36,930 bases of DNA, from contig DASYTI010000007.1 in NCBI GenBank assembly GCA_036002485.1, positions 1 through 36,930 of the forward strand. The letters run 5' to 3'. Under the pieces are notes generated by a model that saw nothing but the letters and a program-made list of their open reading frames with translations, had not been told where the DNA came from and ran no database searches. The stretch comes from Candidatus Methylomirabilota bacterium. GTDB taxonomy: Bacteria > Methylomirabilota > Methylomirabilia > Rokubacteriales > CSP1-6. The position numbers and the translations under genes were made by a program. This document shows positions 11,585 to 36,806 of this stretch, piece after piece. Within the stretch, counting starts at the first letter, position 1, and the number at the start of each line of letters is the position of its first letter.

Positions 11585-11872
11585 TCAGGCCGACTTCGCC
11601 CCGTTGCCGCTGTTCGAGCGGGCCACCGGCAAGAGCCCGAGCAGCCGCAGCCGCTTGCGCAGGGTATTGCGGTTGATCCCGAGCAAGCGAGCCGCCTTCA
11701 GCTGGTTGCCGGCCGACAGCTCGAGGGCATGCCGCAGGAGCGGGGTCTCCACTCTCGCCATGACGCTCCGATACAGCCGACCGCTCTCCGCCGCCGCGGA
11801 ATCACGCACGACGATCGGGAGGACTGTGCTCAATAGCCGATCGAACTCCTCCGCCTCAGCTCGGCCATCCAT
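11585..11872 (-). CDS. Fis-family small DNA-binding protein
   Basis: This 95-residue protein has a C-terminal half that is a Fis/NtrC-type helix-turn-helix (ETPLLRHALELSAGNQLKAA, then RLLGINRNTLRKRLRLLGL). Its N-terminal half resembles the dimerisation region. The length is close to that of E. coli Fis (98 residues). A ribosome site (AAAGGAG) precedes the ATG. It lies 84 bp behind cyanase in the same direction; the gap contains only a weak 6-bp stem (GCGAGC/GCTCGC). Fis-type helices also form the DNA-binding tails of sigma-54 activators, and the operon before it appears to have a sigma-54 promoter, so a role as a nitrogen-related accessory regulator is possible. That link is inference; a general nucleoid role is equally likely. 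Confidence 0.8.
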   Translation of the reverse strand: MDGRAEAEEFDRLLSTVLPIVVRDSAAAESGRLYRSVMARVETPLLRHALELSAGNQLKAARLLGINRNTLRKRLRLLGLLPVARSNSGNGAKSA

Positions 11873-11956: not shown

Positions 11957-12385
11957 CTAGAACTCCTTGTAGTGCAGGAACTTCGCGTCGATCGTGATGA
12001 CGCCGCGCTCGCCTTTCTTCTCGAGCGTCACCTTGCAGTCGATGGCCGAGAGAATGCCATCGCCCCAGAGCTCGTTGGAGCGTTCCCGGAGGGCATCTCC
12101 GTATACTCCCACCAGCTCCATGAGCCGATACTTGAAGGGATCCGTGGTCAGGGGAAAGTCGGTGCGGAGCGGCATGGCGGTGGTCGCCATGGCCGTCTCC
12201 GCGTCGATCCCGACGGCCTGGGCGAGCTTCTTGGCCTCCTCGGCATTCAAACGGTGCTGCCCGTGGAGGGCCGCCGCGATGTACATGGTGTCCTTGGTCC
12301 CGATGGCCTTGCCGAGGTCGTCGTAGGAGAGGCCCTTGGCCTCTCGGGCCTGCCGGATTCTCTGGAGCGCCGCTGCTCGGTCCAT
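11957..12385 (-). CDS. cynS: Cyanase (cyanate hydratase)
   Basis: Cyanase converts cyanate and bicarbonate to carbamate and CO2; the carbamate then decays to ammonia and CO2. The 142-residue protein has the N-terminal helical domain (KGLSYDDLGKAIGTKDTMYI) and the conserved C-terminal catalytic domain. The catalytic triad corresponding to E. coli Arg96, Glu99 and Ser122 is present as Arg87, Glu90 (KYRLMELVGVYG) and Ser113 (GDGILSAID). The C-terminus KFLHYKEF matches the family ending. It starts 11 bp after the transporter ATPase gene with a good AAGGAG ribosome site, so it is the last gene of a cynA-B-D-S unit. The bicarbonate-supplying carbonic anhydrase (cynT) found in the E. coli operon is not nearby. 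Confidence 0.95.
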   Translation of the reverse strand: MDRAAALQRIRQAREAKGLSYDDLGKAIGTKDTMYIAAALHGQHRLNAEEAKKLAQAVGIDAETAMATTAMPLRTDFPLTTDPFKYRLMELVGVYGDALRERSNELWGDGILSAIDCKVTLEKKGERGVITIDAKFLHYKEF

Positions 12386-12396
12386 GTGGGTCTCCT

Positions 12397-13251
12397 TTAG
12401 CGTGTGGGGAGGAGCTCTCCCGTGGCGTGGCTCCCCTCCGCCTGAGCATCCGCCAAGGCCTGCTCCTGGAGATGTCGGGAGCGCTCCACGAGGAAATGGA
12501 TGATGTGGCTGCGCAGACGCGCGTACTCCGGATCGTCGATGATGCTCGAGCGGAAGCGCGGGCGCGGGATCTTGACCTCCACGATCTCGGCGAGACGCGC
12601 GTCCGGCCCGTTGGTCATGAGGGCGACGCGGTCGGAGAGGAGGATGGCCTCGTCGACGTCATGGGTGACCATGAACACCGTGTTCCGGGAGGCCGTCCAC
12701 ATCCGGACCAGCTCTTCCTGGATGACCCCGCGCGTGAGGGCGTCGATCTGGGCGAAGGGCTCGTCGAGCAGGAGCACCTTGGGCTCGGTGGCGAAGGCCC
12801 GGGCCAGGCCCACGCGCTGCTTCATGCCTCCCGAGAGGGCCGACGGCCGCTTGTTCTCGGCCCCCGTGAGGCCGACCATCTCCACGTAGCGCTGCACCCA
12901 CTCCTCGATCTTGCGCGACGGCCACGAAGGATACGCGGAGCGCACGGCCAGTCGCACGTTCTGGGTCACCGTCATCCAGGGCATGAGCGAGAAGTTCTGG
13001 AAGACGACCATGCGGTCCATCCCGGGTCCGCTGATCTCCCGGCCCTCCAGCACCACGCCGCCCAGGGAGGCCGTCTCCAGCCCCGCGATGATGTTCAAGA
13101 GCGTGCTCTTGCCGCAGCCGGAATGGCCCACCATGGTCACGAACTCGCCCCGCTCCACCCCGAAGGCGACGTCGCGGAAGACGCAGAGCTGCCCCCGCCC
13201 GTCGGGGTCGGGAAAGAACTTGGTGGCGTGATCGATCTCGAGAAAGGCCAT
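12397..13251 (-). CDS. cynD: Cyanate/nitrate-type ABC transporter ATPase (CynD/NrtD-like)
   Basis: This 284-residue ATPase energises the importer. It has Walker A (GHSGCGKST), a Q loop (VVFQNFSLMPW), the signature LSGGMKQRVGLARA, Walker B (VLLLDEPFAQID) and the switch histidine in VTHDVDEA. It is of the NrtD/SsuB/TauB type, with no fused solute-binding domain, and there is no NrtC-like gene. Known cyanobacterial cynABD-cynS operons have exactly this arrangement: binding protein, permease, simple ATPase, cyanase. This favours cyanate over nitrate as the substrate; nitrate or nitrite cannot be excluded from sequence alone. It sits 10 bp after the permease and 11 bp before cyanase. Confidence 0.85.
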   Translation of the reverse strand: MAFLEIDHATKFFPDPDGRGQLCVFRDVAFGVERGEFVTMVGHSGCGKSTLLNIIAGLETASLGGVVLEGREISGPGMDRMVVFQNFSLMPWMTVTQNVRLAVRSAYPSWPSRKIEEWVQRYVEMVGLTGAENKRPSALSGGMKQRVGLARAFATEPKVLLLDEPFAQIDALTRGVIQEELVRMWTASRNTVFMVTHDVDEAILLSDRVALMTNGPDARLAEIVEVKIPRPRFRSSIIDDPEYARLRSHIIHFLVERSRHLQEQALADAQAEGSHATGELLPTR

Positions 13252-13261
13252 GAAGTGCCGT

Positions 13262-14065
13262 CTAGTCCGTGTAGGCGACCAGCTTGGCCACTCGGCCCAG
13301 CCCGAAGTCGAGGAGGACGCCCACCACGCCGATGGCCAGGATGGCGAAGATGACGCTGTTCAGCGCGAGGTTGTTCCACTCGTTCCACACGAAGTAGCCG
13401 ACCCCGGTACCCCCGATCAGCATCTCCGCGGCCACGATGGCGACCCAGGCGCTCCCGATGGAGATGCGCAGCCCGGCCAGGATGGCGGGGGCGGCCGCGG
13501 GCAGGATGACCTGGAAGAATCGCCGGGGCCAGGAGAGCTGCAGCAGCCGCGACACGTTGAGATAGTCCTTCCGGATGCTGGCCACCCCGAAGGCGGTGTT
13601 GGCCATGGTCGGCCACAGCGAGGACATGAAGATCACGAGCACCGCCGCCTGCCCGGCATTCTTGATCGTGTAGAGAAAGAGCGGCATCCAGGCGAGCGGC
13701 GAGACGGGCTTGAGGATCTGGATGAAGGGGTTGGCCGCCTTGAAGAGCGCGGGCGAGGAGCCCAGGGCCACCCCGAGCATGATGGCCACCACGGAGGCGG
13801 CGAGATAGCCCACGATGAGCCGCCCCAGGCTATAGCCGAGCTGGAGGCCAAAGCCCTTGTCGTTGGGGCCGCGGTCATAGAATGGATCGGCGAGCATGTC
13901 CCACGACGTCTGGGCGACGGCCACGGGCCCGGGAATACCCGAGCCCTTGCCGCCCTTCCCACCCGCGCCCGCCAGGGCCTGCCAGGCCCCCAGGAAGATG
14001 ACGAGCAGCACCAGGCTGTACACCACCGTCCTCACACGCTCGCGCCGGCCCGCCGTCATCGTCAT
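13262..14065 (-). CDS. cynB: Cyanate/nitrate-type ABC transporter permease (CynB/NrtB-like)
   Basis: This 267-residue inner-membrane permease belongs to the NrtB/SsuC/TauC family. The first helix is near residues 12-31 and is followed by a glycine-rich linker. The family motifs LKPVSPLAWMPLFLY, SSLWPTMANTAFGV and the ATPase-contact loop around SWPRRFFQVILPAAAPAILAG are present, and GGTGVGYFVWNEWN lies near the end. The start ATG shares one base with the stop of the binding-protein gene (TGATG), which indicates coupled translation. Together with the ATPase encoded next it should import the ligand held by CynA. Confidence 0.87.
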   Translation of the reverse strand: MTMTAGRRERVRTVVYSLVLLVIFLGAWQALAGAGGKGGKGSGIPGPVAVAQTSWDMLADPFYDRGPNDKGFGLQLGYSLGRLIVGYLAASVVAIMLGVALGSSPALFKAANPFIQILKPVSPLAWMPLFLYTIKNAGQAAVLVIFMSSLWPTMANTAFGVASIRKDYLNVSRLLQLSWPRRFFQVILPAAAPAILAGLRISIGSAWVAIVAAEMLIGGTGVGYFVWNEWNNLALNSVIFAILAIGVVGVLLDFGLGRVAKLVAYTD

Positions 14066-15339
14066 CAGGCCCGCTTGATGGCGAAGCCGCTCAGATACTC
14101 ACCGGGCTTCGCGGGGTCGAAGGTCTTCTGCTTGCCGAACAGGAACGTATGTGTGACGGAATTCTTATCTGGCGCCTTGTAACCGAGCGCCTTCATCACC
14201 TCCCGACACTGGTCCGCCGCGAAGACCTGGGCCGCCACCTTGGCATAGTCGACGTCACCCTTGATGTAGCCCCAGCGCTTCATTTGGGTGAGGATCCAGA
14301 TGGCCATGGAGTGATACGGGAACGGATCGAAGTCCACGCGGTCCGGCACGTTCATCTTCTGGCCGAGGCCGTTGTCGAACTGCCCCGTGAGCACCGCCTC
14401 GATCACCTCCACGGGCTGGTTGAGGTAGTTGCGCGGGGCGATGGCGGCGGCGATGTCCTTGCGATTCTTCTTGTCGTGCGCGTACTGGGTCGCGTCCACG
14501 ATGGCGCGGAAGAGCGCGCCGAAGGCATTCGGCGAGCTCTCCGCGAAGTCCTTGCGCGCGGCGAAGGCGCAGCAGGGATGGCCGGGCCAGATGTCCTTCG
14601 ACAGCATCCAGATGAAGCCCTCGTTCTCGTATACCGCGCGCTGGTTGAACGGATCGGGGCCGAGGTAGCCGTCGAGGTTGCCCGCCCGGAGATTCGCCAC
14701 CATCTCGGGGGGCGGCACCGCGCGGATCTGGATGTCCTTGTCGGGATCGAGCCCGGCCTCCGCGACCACATAGCGGAGCAGAAAATTGTGCATCGAGTAG
14801 TCGAAGGGCACGCCGAACTTGAAGCCCTTGAAATCGGCGGCGCTCTTCACGCCCTTGTGCTTGTTGGCCAGGGTGATGGCCTGGCCGTTGATGTTCTCGA
14901 CGGCGGGCATCACGTAGGGTACTTCCTGCGACCCGATGCCCATGCTGATGGCCAGCGGCATGGGCGAGAGCATGTGGGTGGCGTCGCTCTCCTTGTTGAT
15001 GGAGAGGTCGCGGATCATGGCCCAGCTCGAGGCCTTCACCACCTGGGCATTGAGGCCGTATTTCTTGTAGAAGCCCATGGGCTCGGCCATGATGATGGGG
15101 GTCGCGCACGTGATGGGGATGAACCCGATCTTGAGGTCCTTCTTCTCGGGCGGCCCGAGCTTGGCCTGGGCCAGCGCCTTGGCCGCGCCGAGAGGGAAGA
15201 CGTCGGCGAGGGCGGCGGCCGCGGCTCCCGCGCCGACCACTTTGAAGAAGTCGCGGCGATCCCCGAAGACCGCATGCTGGACCGAGCGCTCGACGAGGCG
15301 ATCGATCACCGCCTCGGTGTTCTCGGGCTTTGCCTCCAT
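14065..15339 (-). CDS. cynA: Cyanate/nitrate-type substrate-binding protein (CynA/NrtA-like)
   Basis: This is a 424-residue periplasmic binding protein. About 27 residues precede a twin-arginine signal (GDRRDFFKVVGAGAAAAA), with the likely cleavage after the AKALAQA region. The mature part has the NrtA/CynA/SsuA pattern: DLKIGFIPITCATPIIMAEPMGFYKKYG, the ligand-cleft segment FKFGVPFDYSMHN, GYLGPDPFNQRAV, and GHPCCAFAARKDFA. The ATG at 15339 has a strong GGGGGAGGGG site eight bases upstream. Nitrate sensor NasS is a homologue without a signal peptide; this protein has one, so it is a transporter subunit. A sigma-54-like promoter lies about 60 bp upstream. Cyanate is the favoured ligand because cyanase is in the same operon. 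Confidence 0.87.
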   Translation of the reverse strand: MEAKPENTEAVIDRLVERSVQHAVFGDRRDFFKVVGAGAAAAALADVFPLGAAKALAQAKLGPPEKKDLKIGFIPITCATPIIMAEPMGFYKKYGLNAQVVKASSWAMIRDLSINKESDATHMLSPMPLAISMGIGSQEVPYVMPAVENINGQAITLANKHKGVKSAADFKGFKFGVPFDYSMHNFLLRYVVAEAGLDPDKDIQIRAVPPPEMVANLRAGNLDGYLGPDPFNQRAVYENEGFIWMLSKDIWPGHPCCAFAARKDFAESSPNAFGALFRAIVDATQYAHDKKNRKDIAAAIAPRNYLNQPVEVIEAVLTGQFDNGLGQKMNVPDRVDFDPFPYHSMAIWILTQMKRWGYIKGDVDYAKVAAQVFAADQCREVMKALGYKAPDKNSVTHTFLFGKQKTFDPAKPGEYLSGFAIKRA

Positions 15340-15397
15340 CCGTTTCCCCTCCCCCGTTCGGATTGGTCTTCGGGGCCGAATCACCCGAGGTGAGCAG

Positions 15398-15413
15398 AGC
15401 AAGGCCTGTGCCT
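15398..15413 (-). promoter_or_regulatory. Sigma-54 (-24/-12) promoter of the cyn operon
   Basis: On the minus strand the sequence AGGCAC, five bases, TTGCT runs from 15413 to 15398. It matches the consensus TGGCAC-N5-TTGCW except for the first base and has the exact GG-N10-GC spacing (GG at 15412-15411, GC at 15400-15399). The predicted transcript start near 15387 leaves a leader of about 48 nt that includes the cynA ribosome site. Nitrogen (NtrC-type) control is inferred. Confidence 0.7.
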
Positions 15414-15474
15414 CGATCTGGCTCCAAGCAAATCAACGAGTTCAGGCAGGCGGGGAAAATCAGCGATGCGGGAT

Positions 15475-15491
15475 TGCCCACGAGATAAGCA
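15475..15491 (-). promoter_or_regulatory. Weak NtrC-site candidate upstream of the cyn promoter
   Basis: TGC-N11-GCA (17 bp) has the half-site spacing of NtrC enhancers and lies about 65-80 bp upstream of the -24 element, but only part of each half-site matches TGCACC/GGTGCA. The rest of the gap 15340-15533 shows nothing else clear. Confidence 0.25.
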
Positions 15492-15533
15492 CACACGCCT
15501 CTCGCGTGAGCAAGCTGTGGGCAGTTCCCGTGC

Positions 15534-15914
15534 CTACGATGTGGGCATGAAAGAGACGTGGGCGCTCACAACGCGCCAGCCCTCAGGCATACGAACCCAG
15601 GTCTGGCTCTGGCGACCCTCCCGCCCTGACTCGAGCCGCTGAAACTCGGTGTTGGCCGTCGCGAGGTCGCGCCCGAAGGTGGTGATGACGGTGTTCTTGA
15701 GGACCCGGCGCAGATCCATTTTCGGTCGCGCGAGTCGCGAGGCATGGATGGCCGCGAAGCCATAGGCATTGTCCGTCAGCGAGTAGCGAATGACGCGCGG
15801 GTCCCTCCAGAAACAGGAATCCAGGACCTCGATGTCGTTCGCGTCGAGCGCTTTCTCGTAGCGATCGAAGGCCGCGGTCACCTCGGCGACAATATCGGGC
15901 AGATTCATGTCCAC
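15534..15914 (-). CDS. atzH: AtzH/HpxZ-like protein (DUF3225, SnoaL/NTF2 fold)
   Basis: This is a 126-residue NTF2-fold protein. The family pattern is clear: LPDIVAEVTAAFDRYEKALDAND, then FWRDPRVIRYSLTDNAYGF, TVITTFGRDLATANTEF, and a C-terminal SQTWVRMPEGWRVVSAHVS. The best-studied relative, AtzH of Pseudomonas sp. ADP, converts 1,3-dicarboxyurea to allophanate; HpxZ is a relative in oxalurate/oxamate gene clusters. The GTG at 15914 sits eight bases behind a good AAGGAGA site; an ATG two codons later is the alternative. It follows the AtzE-like amidase by 40 bp in the same order as in atz(D)GEH(F) and hpxXYZ clusters, which strengthens the assignment. The true substrate in this organism is unknown. 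Confidence 0.75.
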   Translation of the reverse strand: MDMNLPDIVAEVTAAFDRYEKALDANDIEVLDSCFWRDPRVIRYSLTDNAYGFAAIHASRLARPKMDLRRVLKNTVITTFGRDLATANTEFQRLESGREGRQSQTWVRMPEGWRVVSAHVSFMPTS

Positions 15915-28445: not shown

Positions 28446-28461
28446 AGCAAGCCCCATGCCC
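28446..28461 (-). promoter_or_regulatory. Sigma-54 (-24/-12) promoter candidate of the urt-ure-atz series
   Basis: On the minus strand GGGCAT, five bases, TTGCT runs from 28461 to 28446 and has the exact GG-N10-GC spacing (GG at 28460-28459, GC at 28448-28447). One base of the TGGCAC-type half differs from TGGCAY. The predicted transcript start near 28435 gives a leader of about 108 nt. The gap also holds the terminator at 28515-28551; a 5-bp stem with a GACGGA loop (28363-28378) lies in the leader. Confidence 0.6.
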
Positions 28462-28514: not shown

Positions 28515-28551
28515 AAAGGGCCGCTGCCTAGTTGGTAGGCAGCGGCCCTTT
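28515..28551 (-). terminator. Perfect 16-bp hairpin terminator after the ANTAR regulator gene
   Basis: AAAGGGCCGCTGCCTA (28515-28530) is the exact reverse complement of 28536-28551, with a 5-nt loop. On the minus strand the stem ends in TTT and is followed by AAGTTTTCTC, a T-rich tail. It lies 22 bp after the stop codon of the regulator gene and upstream of the urtA promoter, so it separates the two transcripts. It is among the strongest structural elements in the window. Confidence 0.85.
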
Positions 28552-28573
28552 GATGCCTCAGAATTCGGCAGAT

Positions 28574-29179
28574 CTATCGCGTGGTGCGGAGCGGCCCCAT
28601 CGTATTGGCCAAGAGGAGAGCCTGAGCGACCTCGGCCATGGTCTTGCGGGTATCCATGGCCGTCTTCTGGATTCGTCGAAAGGCCTCGGGCTCGGTCAGT
28701 CCCATGCGTGTCATCAGGATGCCTTTGGCCCTGTCCACCAGCTTGCGCGACTCGAGCTTTTGCTTGAGGGCCTCGTTCTCCTTGCGTACCGCTTCCAGCT
28801 CACGGAAGCGCGAGACGGCGACGTCAAGCGCGGGCGCCAGCTCCTCCGGCCTCAGCGGCTTGACCAGGAAACCGAGCACGCCCGCCTCGACGGCGCCCGC
28901 GGTGATATCGGGATTCGTGTGGCTCGTGAGCAGCACGATCGGACACGGCAAGGCCGCCATCACGCGACGGGCCGCTTCCACGCCATCGCCGTCGGGCAGG
29001 CCGACAGCGAGCAGCAAGACGTCGGGGCGATGCTTGTCGACGAGGCGCACGGCGTCCTCGACGCGACTGCCATTGCCGACCACGGTGCCCCCCTGGGCGC
29101 CGATGGCCTCGGCCACGGCCGCCCGGGAGGGAGCATGATCATCCACGATCAGGACTCTCCAGCGCGTAGTCGTCTTCAT
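28574..29179 (-). CDS. AmiR/NasT-like ANTAR antitermination regulator with a non-phosphorylatable receiver
   Basis: This 201-residue protein has a receiver-like domain (about 8-125), a coiled-coil linker (FRELEAVRKENEALKQKLES, about 135-155) and a C-terminal ANTAR RNA-binding domain (LVDRAKGILMTRMGLTEPEAFRRIQ). ANTAR proteins bind leader-RNA hairpins and prevent termination. The acidic pair Asp13-Asp14, Thr85 and Lys107 of a receiver are kept, but the phospho-acceptor position is Ala58 (LLLAVGLPDGDG; codon GCT at 29006-29008). Phosphorylation is therefore not expected, as in AmiR, which is controlled by a partner protein. No AmiC- or NasS-like cytoplasmic sensor gene adjoins it. I used the ATG at 29179; an upstream in-frame GTG at 29209 is the alternative. 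It lies just upstream of the urt series. Confidence 0.88.
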   Translation of the reverse strand: MKTTTRWRVLIVDDHAPSRAAVAEAIGAQGGTVVGNGSRVEDAVRLVDKHRPDVLLLAVGLPDGDGVEAARRVMAALPCPIVLLTSHTNPDITAGAVEAGVLGFLVKPLRPEELAPALDVAVSRFRELEAVRKENEALKQKLESRKLVDRAKGILMTRMGLTEPEAFRRIQKTAMDTRKTMAEVAQALLLANTMGPLRTTR

Positions 29180-29192
29180 GGCGACCTGAGGC

Positions 29193-29208
29193 AGCAAGGA
29201 GGATGCCA
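29193..29208 (-). promoter_or_regulatory. Sigma-54 consensus sequence before the ANTAR regulator gene
   Basis: TGGCAT, five bases, TTGCT runs on the minus strand from 29208 to 29193 and is a full match to TGGCAY-N5-TTGCW with GG-N10-GC spacing. The predicted transcript start near 29182 is only about 3 nt before the ATG at 29179, so the mRNA would be nearly leaderless, or the match is fortuitous. Confidence 0.45.
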
Positions 29209-29329
29209 CGGTGCACGCCTGAAAAATCGCGCGATTGTGCTGCTCCGCGTAAGCCAGACGTGCTCAGCCGTCGCGCATATTACGGCCGAACGCTCACCGG
29301 ATGAGCAGTTCCAGGGCCCGGTCTTCTTG

Positions 29330-35381: not shown

Positions 35382-36806
35382 CTAGATGTCGTAGTACAGC
35401 GCGAACTCGTACGGATGCGGCCGCAGGCGGACGGGATCCACCTCGTTCTTCCGCTTGTAGTCGATCCACGTCTCGATGAGATCCGGCGTGAAGACGTCGC
35501 CCTTGAGCAGGAAGTCGTGGTTCTTCTCGAGATTGTCCAGCACGATGTCCAGCGCCCCCGGAAGCTGCTTGATCTTCTTCTGCTCGGCGGGCGGCAGCTC
35601 GTAGAGATCCTTGTCCACGGGCTTGCCGGGATCGATCTTGTTGGCCACGCCGTCCAGACCGGCCATCACGCATGCCGCAAACGAGAGGTACGGATTGCAG
35701 GTCGGGTCCGGCGTCCGGAACTCGATGCGCTTGGCTCCCTCCGCCTTCGAGTACATGGGAATGCGAATGGCCGCCGACCGGTTCCGCTGGCTGTACACCA
35801 GGTTGATGGGGGCCTCGTAGCCCGGCACCAGCCGCTTGTAGCTATTCGTGCTGGGGGCGATGAAGGCGAGGAGGGCGGGGGCGTGCTTGAGGATGCCGCC
35901 GATGTAGTAGAGGCACGTCTTCGAGATGTCGGCGTACCCACCCCGCTCGTAGAAAAGGTTCTTGCCGTTCTTCCAGATCGACTGGTGGGTGTGCATGCCC
36001 GAACCATTGTCCTGAAAGAGCGGCTTGGGCATGAAGGTGGCCGTCTTGCCCCATTTCTTGGCCGTGTTCTTGGCGCAGTACTTGTACCAGCAGACCTTGT
36101 CGGCCATCTTGGTCAGCGTGTCGTAGCGCATGTCGATCTCGGTCTGCCCGCCCGTGGCCACCTCGTGGTGATGCACCTCGATCCGGACGCCGACCGATTC
36201 GAGGGCGAGCACCATATCGGAGCGAATGTCCTGGAACTTGTCCATGGGCGGCACGGGGAAATAGCCCTGCTTGTAGCGCGGCTTGTAGCCGAGGTTCGGC
36301 CGGTCCGGCGTGCCCTCGAGGCCCGTGTTCCAGGCGCCGGCCTCGGAGTCGATGAAGTAGTAGCCGCAGTTGTACGTCTGGTCGAAGCGAATGGAGTCGA
36401 AGAAGAAGAACTCGAGCTCGGGTCCGATGTAGATCGTGTCTCCGACGCCCGACTTCTTCACGTAGGCCTCGGCCTTCTGGGCAACGTAGCGGGGATCGCG
36501 CGTGTACGCCTTCCCCGTGATCGGGTCCTTGACATTGCAGATGAGGACCATGGTGGGCACCGCGGTGAACGGGTCCATCTGCGCCGTCGAGGCATCGGGC
36601 ATGAGCAGCATGTCCGACTCGTCGATGGTCTGAAAGCCGCGGATCGACGAGCCGTCGAAGCCCAGGCCGTCTGCGAAGATGCCCTCGTTCAGCTCGGAGA
36701 CCGGGATCGAGAAGTGCTGCCAGAGGCCGGGGAGATCGATGAAGCGCAGATCGATGATCTTGACGCCCTTCTCCTTGGCCATTTTCAACACGTCCTTCGG
36801 GGTCAT
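35382..36806 (-). CDS. glnA: Glutamine synthetase type I (GSI-beta)
   Basis: GlnA joins ammonia to glutamate with ATP and is the entry point for the ammonia produced by urease and cyanase. The 474-residue protein has the N-terminal domain (IIDLRFIDLPGLWQHFSIP), GLGFDGSSIRGF, and the active-site segments GPELEFFFFD, HHHEVATGGQTEID and NGSGMHTHQSIWK. The ATP-binding Lys-region sequence KRLVPGYEAPINLVYSQRNRSA is present. The adenylylation site is Tyr402 (DKDLYELPPAE), so control by GlnE is likely and the enzyme is of the GSI-beta class. A strong AAAGGAGG site precedes the ATG at 36806. No sigma-54 promoter is visible in the 120 bp upstream. Confidence 0.96.
   Translation of the reverse strand: MTPKDVLKMAKEKGVKIIDLRFIDLPGLWQHFSIPVSELNEGIFADGLGFDGSSIRGFQTIDESDMLLMPDASTAQMDPFTAVPTMVLICNVKDPITGKAYTRDPRYVAQKAEAYVKKSGVGDTIYIGPELEFFFFDSIRFDQTYNCGYYFIDSEAGAWNTGLEGTPDRPNLGYKPRYKQGYFPVPPMDKFQDIRSDMVLALESVGVRIEVHHHEVATGGQTEIDMRYDTLTKMADKVCWYKYCAKNTAKKWGKTATFMPKPLFQDNGSGMHTHQSIWKNGKNLFYERGGYADISKTCLYYIGGILKHAPALLAFIAPSTNSYKRLVPGYEAPINLVYSQRNRSAAIRIPMYSKAEGAKRIEFRTPDPTCNPYLSFAACVMAGLDGVANKIDPGKPVDKDLYELPPAEQKKIKQLPGALDIVLDNLEKNHDFLLKGDVFTPDLIETWIDYKRKNEVDPVRLRPHPYEFALYYDI

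Follow-up and report, generated by a model that had tools for sequence, protein, structure and literature searches.

The window is the whole 36,930-nucleotide stretch of DNA that we analyzed, contig C7 of a 4.45-Mb genome in 253 contigs, and its lineage is the uncultured soil lineage Candidatus Rokubacteria. The nearest named cynA, among the best 80 of 575 matches, was 97% identical and came from a 'Candidatus Rokuibacteriota' MAG. The minus strand of the window carries the cyanate transporter and cyanase genes cynABDS, with a gene for a small Fis/NtrC-type protein (FisL) on the 3' side, as well as urease genes, the urea transporter genes, glnA and a gene for a receiver-ANTAR (AmiR/NasT-like) antiterminator (Table 1). 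An atzG-like/amidase/atzH-like group sits between the urease genes and cyn. Genes with these names belong to cyanuric acid breakdown, where they make up the 1-carboxybiuret hydrolase group, and the names suggest that biuret or cyanurate nitrogen is used in the same island.

Table 1. Features of the cyn region, related sites in the window and the sigma-54 elements of cynA in related genomes.
Feature	Position	Strand	Sequence or model	Remarks
FisL	11585-11872	-	Pfam HTH_8	95-aa stand-alone Fis/NtrC-type DNA-binding domain, 3' of cynS
FisL, other loci	L225:1736-2074; L228:2087-2248			
cynS, cyanase	11957-12385	-	Pfam Cyanate_lyase and CYNS_N; NCBIfam cynS	NCBIfam score 106 bits, cut-off 113.3
cynD, ATPase	12397-13251	-	Pfam ABC_tran; NCBIfam TIGR01184	
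cynB, permease	13262-14065	-	Pfam BPD_transp_1; NCBIfam TIGR01183	
cynA, cyanate ABC transporter binding protein	14065-15339	-	Pfam NMT1_2	followed by cynB, cynD, cynS
Predicted 48-nt cyn leader	15340-15387	-	GGGGGAGGGG (ribosome-site-like run)	no ANTAR motif, no terminator
Probable sigma-54 -24/-12 element of cynA	15398-15413	-	AGGCACAGGCCTTGCT	10/11 consensus letters; kept in 8/8 orthologues, 6 genera; same element in G000 (window genome) and G004
Proximal NtrC-type box	15475-15491	-	TGCTTATCTCGTGGGCA	exact TGC-N11-GCA; at -78 to -82 in 8/9 cyn elements
Alternative distal NtrC-type box	15496-15512	-	TGCTCACGCGAGAGGCG	5/6 letters; 21 bp from proximal box; read from sequence
Probable distal NtrC-type box	15507-15523	-	TGCCCACAGCTTGCTCA	5/6 letters; exact box at -108 to -111 in 6/9 cyn elements
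Third exact TGC-N11-GCA	15531-15547	-		overlaps atzH stop codon; also in G004, no other genus
atzG-like/amidase/atzH-like group	17546-15534	-	Pfam names	between urease genes and cyn
urtA to urtE, urea transporter	28327 down to 22719	-		
Sigma-54 element before urtA	28446-28461	-	GGGCATGGGGCTTGCT	boxes at 28525-28541 and 28554-28570
Receiver-ANTAR gene	28574-29179	-	Pfam ANTAR and Response_reg	
Sigma-54 element before ANTAR gene	29193-29208	-	TGGCATCCTCCTTGCT	boxes at 29261-29277 and 29291-29307
glnA	35382-36806	-		
cynA element, G011			CGGCATACCGCTTGCT	
cynA element, G022			CGGCATGCGCCTTGCT	
cynA element, G030 and G009			CGGCACACCCCTTGCT	
cynA element, G078			CGGCACGCGCCTTGCT	
cynA element, G068			GGGCACGCCGATTGCT	
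Ninth element, G034 (7th genus)			GGGCACAGCCCTTGCC	before deleted cyn remnant

An earlier sequence-only reading of this DNA had placed AGGCAC-N5-TTGCT, with exact GG-N10-GC spacing, 59 bp from the cynA ATG and had predicted a 48-nt leader that includes a ribosome site, and the sequence bears this out. The element has 10 of the 11 letters of TGGCAC-N5-TTGCT, the ATG lies at 15339, and the leader would span 15387-15340 if +1 is placed, as we did, 12 nt downstream of the -12 C. Scanning 15300-15560 revealed no sigma-70-like promoter and no terminator. Taken alone the single site is weak, since TGGCAC-N5-TTGCW, with at most 2 mismatches allowed, was not enriched in the window (14 matches, compared with 11.3 +/- 3.4 in shuffles). 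In a sample of 478,815 bases from this genome, elements with at least 9 of the 11 letters occurred 68 times in 956,430 strand positions, which corresponds to a chance of 2.1% per 300 bp on one strand. The whole genome contained 30 GGCAY-N5-TTGCW sites, whereas spacers of 4 and 6 bases gave 17 and 11 sites, an enrichment that is only suggestive because the reversed-pattern controls were noisy (13, 8 and 37). Three of these 30 sites belong to the window, one each upstream of cynA, urtA and the ANTAR gene.

We searched for cynA in 60 relatives and 57 genomes of the family, and an orthologue (E <= 1e-100) was identified in 9 of the 57 family genomes. One of these, G062 (L058), was left out because the 5' part of its cynA was missing, and 8 genomes from 6 genera remained. 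The scan of orthologues, which had been proposed as a check, found the same sigma-54 element upstream of cynA in all 8 genomes, with at least 9 of the 11 letters and within 180 bp of the start in every case. The form GGCAY-N5-TTGCY was common to the 8 cynA genes and to a ninth element that precedes a deleted cyn remnant in a seventh genus. Four named Rokubacteria loci had the same elements as G004, G011, G009 and G068 and were left out of the count.

The E. coli NtrC consensus, as given in one report, is TGCACCAnnnTGGTGCA, with the frame TGC-N11-GCA (PMC8743547). A TGC-N11-GCA sequence had been proposed as a possible NtrC site 65-80 bp further upstream of the cynA element; we located it at 15491 to 15475, 62-78 bp from the element, and found it to be a member of a conserved tandem. 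Tandem boxes with 11-12 of 12 letters were present at all nine cyn elements, usually 29-30 bp apart and ~80 bp upstream of the element. Six of the nine had two exact boxes, at -108 to -111 and -79 to -82 from the first base of the element. The window genome and G004 had an exact box at -78 and a 5/6-letter box at -110, while in G011 the exact box was at -158 and the 5/6-letter box at -128, farther off than usual. The imperfect distal box of the window and its spacing of 32 or 21 bp, versus the usual 29-30 bp, count against the reading as an NtrC/sigma-54 promoter. A pair with at least 11 of 12 letters occurred in only 11 of 20,000 random 180-bp stretches of the genome sample, and the tandem was not found beside any of the sigma-54-like elements (at least 9/11) in the 478,815-base sample. 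Only 3 of the 30 GGCAY-N5-TTGCW sites of the genome had the tandem, namely those before cynA, urtA and the ANTAR gene, all in the window. The box pair of the ANTAR gene was found at -97 to -99 and -67 to -69 in all 7 genomes examined (both boxes exact in 5, 11 of 12 letters in 2). At urtA all 5 of 5 genomes had a box pair that matched 10-12 of the 12 letters, with one box less certain because it occupies the same place as the terminator hairpin that follows the ANTAR gene. An nrtA-type paralogue (C240) had a sigma-54 match and no tandem boxes, which also speaks against the NtrC reading and indicates that the scheme is not followed by every nitrogen gene here.

The genes for the corresponding machinery, rpoN and ntrC, had been named as ones to look for in the genome, and both were found. 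The ntrC gene (C119:1177-2562) scored 547 bits, just below the curated cut-off of 558.6, and the adjoining gene for a PAS kinase fitted AtoS (295 bits) better than NtrB (211 bits, cut-off 240). C177 encoded the core-binding domain of RpoN, and the sequence for its DNA-binding domain lay at two contig ends (C106 and C19). The last 607 bp of these two ends were 96.9% identical, with a frameshift in one, and they are probably strain variants left by the assembly. We read rpoN as one gene split by assembly, the alternative being two copies; in 5 relatives it was a complete open frame of 487-537 codons.

A sigma-54 promoter could also be served by another NtrC-family regulator encoded elsewhere, such as a CynF-like cyanate sensor, and cyanate would then be the main signal. 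In favour of this reading, a search with the NtrC model gave 14 matches in the genome (E <= 1e-60), and for the cynF-cynABDS system of Pseudomonas the local CynF is reported to be indispensable, with cyanate as inducer, ammonium as the repressing signal and a predicted sigma-54 promoter (PMC6627978). We also compared the best 80 of 575 confirmed named cynA loci (76 non-Rokubacteria and 4 Rokubacteria), some of which end at contig ends and may hide an activator. Also in its favour, among these best 80 loci a divergent gene for an activator of the NtrC family lay upstream of cynA in 67 of the 76 non-Rokubacteria loci; by analogy we take this as the CynF-type arrangement of Pseudomonas, with CynF orthology putative. 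The palindrome ACGA-N4-TCGT was present within 700 bp upstream in 54 of the 76, while a 700-bp control inside cynA gave 0/80, and the repeated copies (in L137, L138 and others) are candidate sites of CynF-type activators. Tandem NtrC boxes beside a sigma-54 element were found in 0/76 of these loci. The four Rokubacteria loci among the best 80 of 575, on the other hand, had NtrC boxes, no divergent activator gene and no ACGA-N4-TCGT. In the window and in 7 relatives, the search of the cyn regions found no sigma-54 activator gene, with ~0.9 kb to >20 kb of upstream DNA covered. With no CynF-like gene near cyn in the Rokubacteria loci examined, and with boxes that share the NtrC consensus frame and stand before urtA and the ANTAR gene as well, a CynF-like activator acting from elsewhere is improbable. 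That the element is a chance match, with cyn read through from the atz/urease genes or transcribed from a sigma-70 promoter missed by the scan, is more improbable still: matches of this quality occur at chance level in the window and the genes upstream share the direction of cyn, but the element is kept in 6 genera against the 2.1% rate per 300 bp, and the boxes stand at a fixed distance.

Several of the best 80 of 575 loci showed other arrangements. A divergent sigma-54-type activator gene without an element of at least 9/11 within 700 bp was seen in 41 of the 76 non-Rokubacteria loci, mostly Rhodobacteraceae (L120-L190). Rhodobacter capsulatus NtrC works with ordinary polymerase, and by analogy this may perhaps be the partner of the L120-L190 activators. 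In two MAGs labelled Nitrospirae (L115 and L116) glnA lies on the same strand upstream of cynA, at ~0.2 kb and 2 kb, and a search of the 350 or 700 bp upstream of cynA found no sigma-54 element. Next to cynA, an Ectothiorhodospiraceae MAG (L142:2999-3544) and a Planctomycetaceae MAG (L125:2530-3063) each carry an ANTAR gene; both belong to the minority of loci in which no divergent activator gene was seen. L142 also has a TGCACC-type NtrC box, and its leader contains a terminator-like hairpin; tandem hexaloops were not found there by the descriptor.

We consider it highly likely that cynABDS has its sigma-54 promoter at 15398-15413 and that this promoter is controlled by NtrC. Since the element and the tandem are conserved and the genome has rpoN, ntrC and an ntrB-like gene, the cyn operon is very probably induced by nitrogen limitation through NtrC and sigma-54, and the sequence data thus support the nitrogen-limitation switch for cyanate uptake and cyanase that had been proposed. 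The additional boxes, the matching promoters of urtA and the ANTAR gene, the ANTAR-type leader of sister genera and the lack of a CynF-type activator were not part of that earlier reading. Protein binding, the start site, the extent of the transcript and the response to nitrogen are what we infer. Under nitrogen limitation NtrB would phosphorylate NtrC, which would bind the TGC-N11-GCA boxes at 15475-15523 and reach, by looping, the sigma-54 polymerase already poised on the -24/-12 element. The transcript would begin near 15387 with the 48-nt leader and would cover cynA, cynB, cynD, cynS and probably fisL. A conserved nitrogen-starvation switch before cyn suggests that cyanate is probably an emergency nitrogen source, and the same pair of signals before urtA and the ANTAR gene marks the window as a putatively co-regulated nitrogen-scavenging island.

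The leaders of cyn in sister genera showed a further feature. ANTAR targets are designed around hexaloops with A1 and G4 (PMC3369931). Two successive hexaloop hairpins, about 9-15 nt past the element, were found in G030, G009, G078, G068 and G022; the second loop had A1 and G4 in all five, and the first loop had G4 in all five and A1 in three. In four of the five the 3' arm of the second hairpin also forms a terminator-like hairpin, which was clearest in GGGCGCCATTTTTT and had a weak T run in G068, while the G022 leader had the two hairpins and no T run. When the five leaders were aligned, 98% of the cells paired and 3 of the 10 pairs changed on both sides, as compared with 29-60% pairing in slid versions. 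A model built from the five leaders scored 46-56 bits in the sister genera, and when it was run over 52 sources (521,065 bases) the only non-training place above noise was in G034 (28.5 bits, E 0.004), where it closely follows the sigma-54 element that precedes the cyn remnant. The cyn leader of the window scored 1.8 bits and had no tandem hexaloop hairpins, and that of G011 (L006) scored 15.4 bits and had no convincing ANTAR motif. The ANTAR gene was present in 8/8 genomes searched. An Rfam scan of 8 cyn/nrt loci gave nothing at the gathering score, and three sub-threshold matches were discarded as chance. Folding z-scores were +0.99 for the window, -0.28 for G004, -0.41 for G030, -1.48 for G009, -2.45 for G078 and -4.40 for G068, and folding energies by themselves do not support a leader structure everywhere; the minimum-energy fold of G030 lacked the second hairpin. 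Since the descriptor for an ANTAR-like tandem behind a weak sigma-54 element gave 7 matches in 478,815 background bases, single matches mean little. The shared motif and the paired changes, in only five sequences, are what point to a putative ANTAR-type leader. The urtA leader of the window showed one possible hexaloop hairpin by eye and no second, and we do not put it forward as an ANTAR target. Of the cyn operon, G034 (L228:1400-2000) retained only part of cynA and a cynS cut at its 5' end; the NtrC/sigma-54/ANTAR-type leader looks intact, and an ANTAR gene lies directly 3' of the cyn remnant and fisL.

The fisL gene was found 3' of cynS in G000, G004, G022, G030, G078 and G034 (5 genera). 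In G011 we found no copy beside cyn, and the G009 contig ends within cynS. In G012, which had no cynA orthologue at E <= 1e-100, fisL lies 3' of genes for a P-II protein and a porin. The sole other match to FisL in the window genome at E <= 1e-6 was the C-terminus of NtrC, and the helix-turn-helix of FisL (GNQLKAARLLGINRNTLRKRL) is almost identical to that of NtrC (GNQVRAAQLLGINRNTLRKKL). Judged by this likeness, FisL could occupy the NtrC boxes and so dampen cyn expression, though it could equally be an ordinary Fis. The idea of FisL as a remnant of CynF was not supported, as with FisL as the query only its own genus was matched among the best 80 of 575 loci and the second match in the genome was NtrC.

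Cyanate use is usually treated as detoxification or as a substrate-induced pathway. The promoter described here points to cyanate use as a response to nitrogen famine, jointly with urea uptake, in an uncultured soil lineage. Our literature searches, which covered open-licence PMC papers, turned up no description of a Rokubacteria cyn promoter or of cyn genes controlled by NtrC boxes or by ANTAR proteins. The sigma-54 promoter type is known; as far as these searches show, the wiring, with NtrC boxes where a local CynF-type gene would stand and with an ANTAR-type leader in sister genera that is missing here, appears to be new. A speculative and rather unlikely extension is that the operon was rewired from CynF to NtrC while the substrate signal moved to RNA, an NtrC/sigma-54-driven ANTAR protein opening the terminator of the cyn leader, that the genus of the window lost this RNA gate, and that FisL may act as a brake through the NtrC boxes. 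The three states offer a natural comparison around one operon: a CynF-type activator (mostly Proteobacteria), NtrC boxes with an ANTAR-type leader (the sister genera) and NtrC boxes alone (the window genus). This comparison makes the loss of a specific inducer, or its move from DNA to RNA, testable.

Paired upstream NtrC sites are found at E. coli glnA. As in the promoters of the E. coli Ntr regulon, the Rokubacteria cyn promoter has paired TGC-N11-GCA boxes ~100-130 bp before the predicted start and a -24/-12 element, but the inner letters of the boxes vary (TGCYC...GRGCA versus TGCACC...GGTGCA in the consensus of PMC8743547), and the promoter here belongs to a different phylum and serves a cyanate operon. 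A published survey of sigma-54 regulons includes both cyanase (in alpha- and gamma-proteobacteria) and ANTAR genes among the targets, with 0 occurrences of Rokubacteria or Methylomirabilota in its main text (PMC12316311). The five sister-genus cyn leaders resemble the NasR, AmiR and EutV ANTAR leaders in their tandem hexaloop hairpins, and four of them also in the terminator-like hairpin that overlaps the second hairpin, whereas the cyn leader of the window lacks this design; 'cyanate' has 0 occurrences in the main text of that paper (PMC3369931). Another of the closest known counterparts, as described in PMC6627978, is cynFABDS of Pseudomonas pseudoalcaligenes CECT5344, with which the Rokubacteria operon shares the cynABDS order, a predicted sigma-54 promoter before cynA and an expected repression by ammonium. 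Unlike that system, the Rokubacteria operon has no divergent cynF, carries tandem NtrC-type boxes and is clustered with urea and urease genes.
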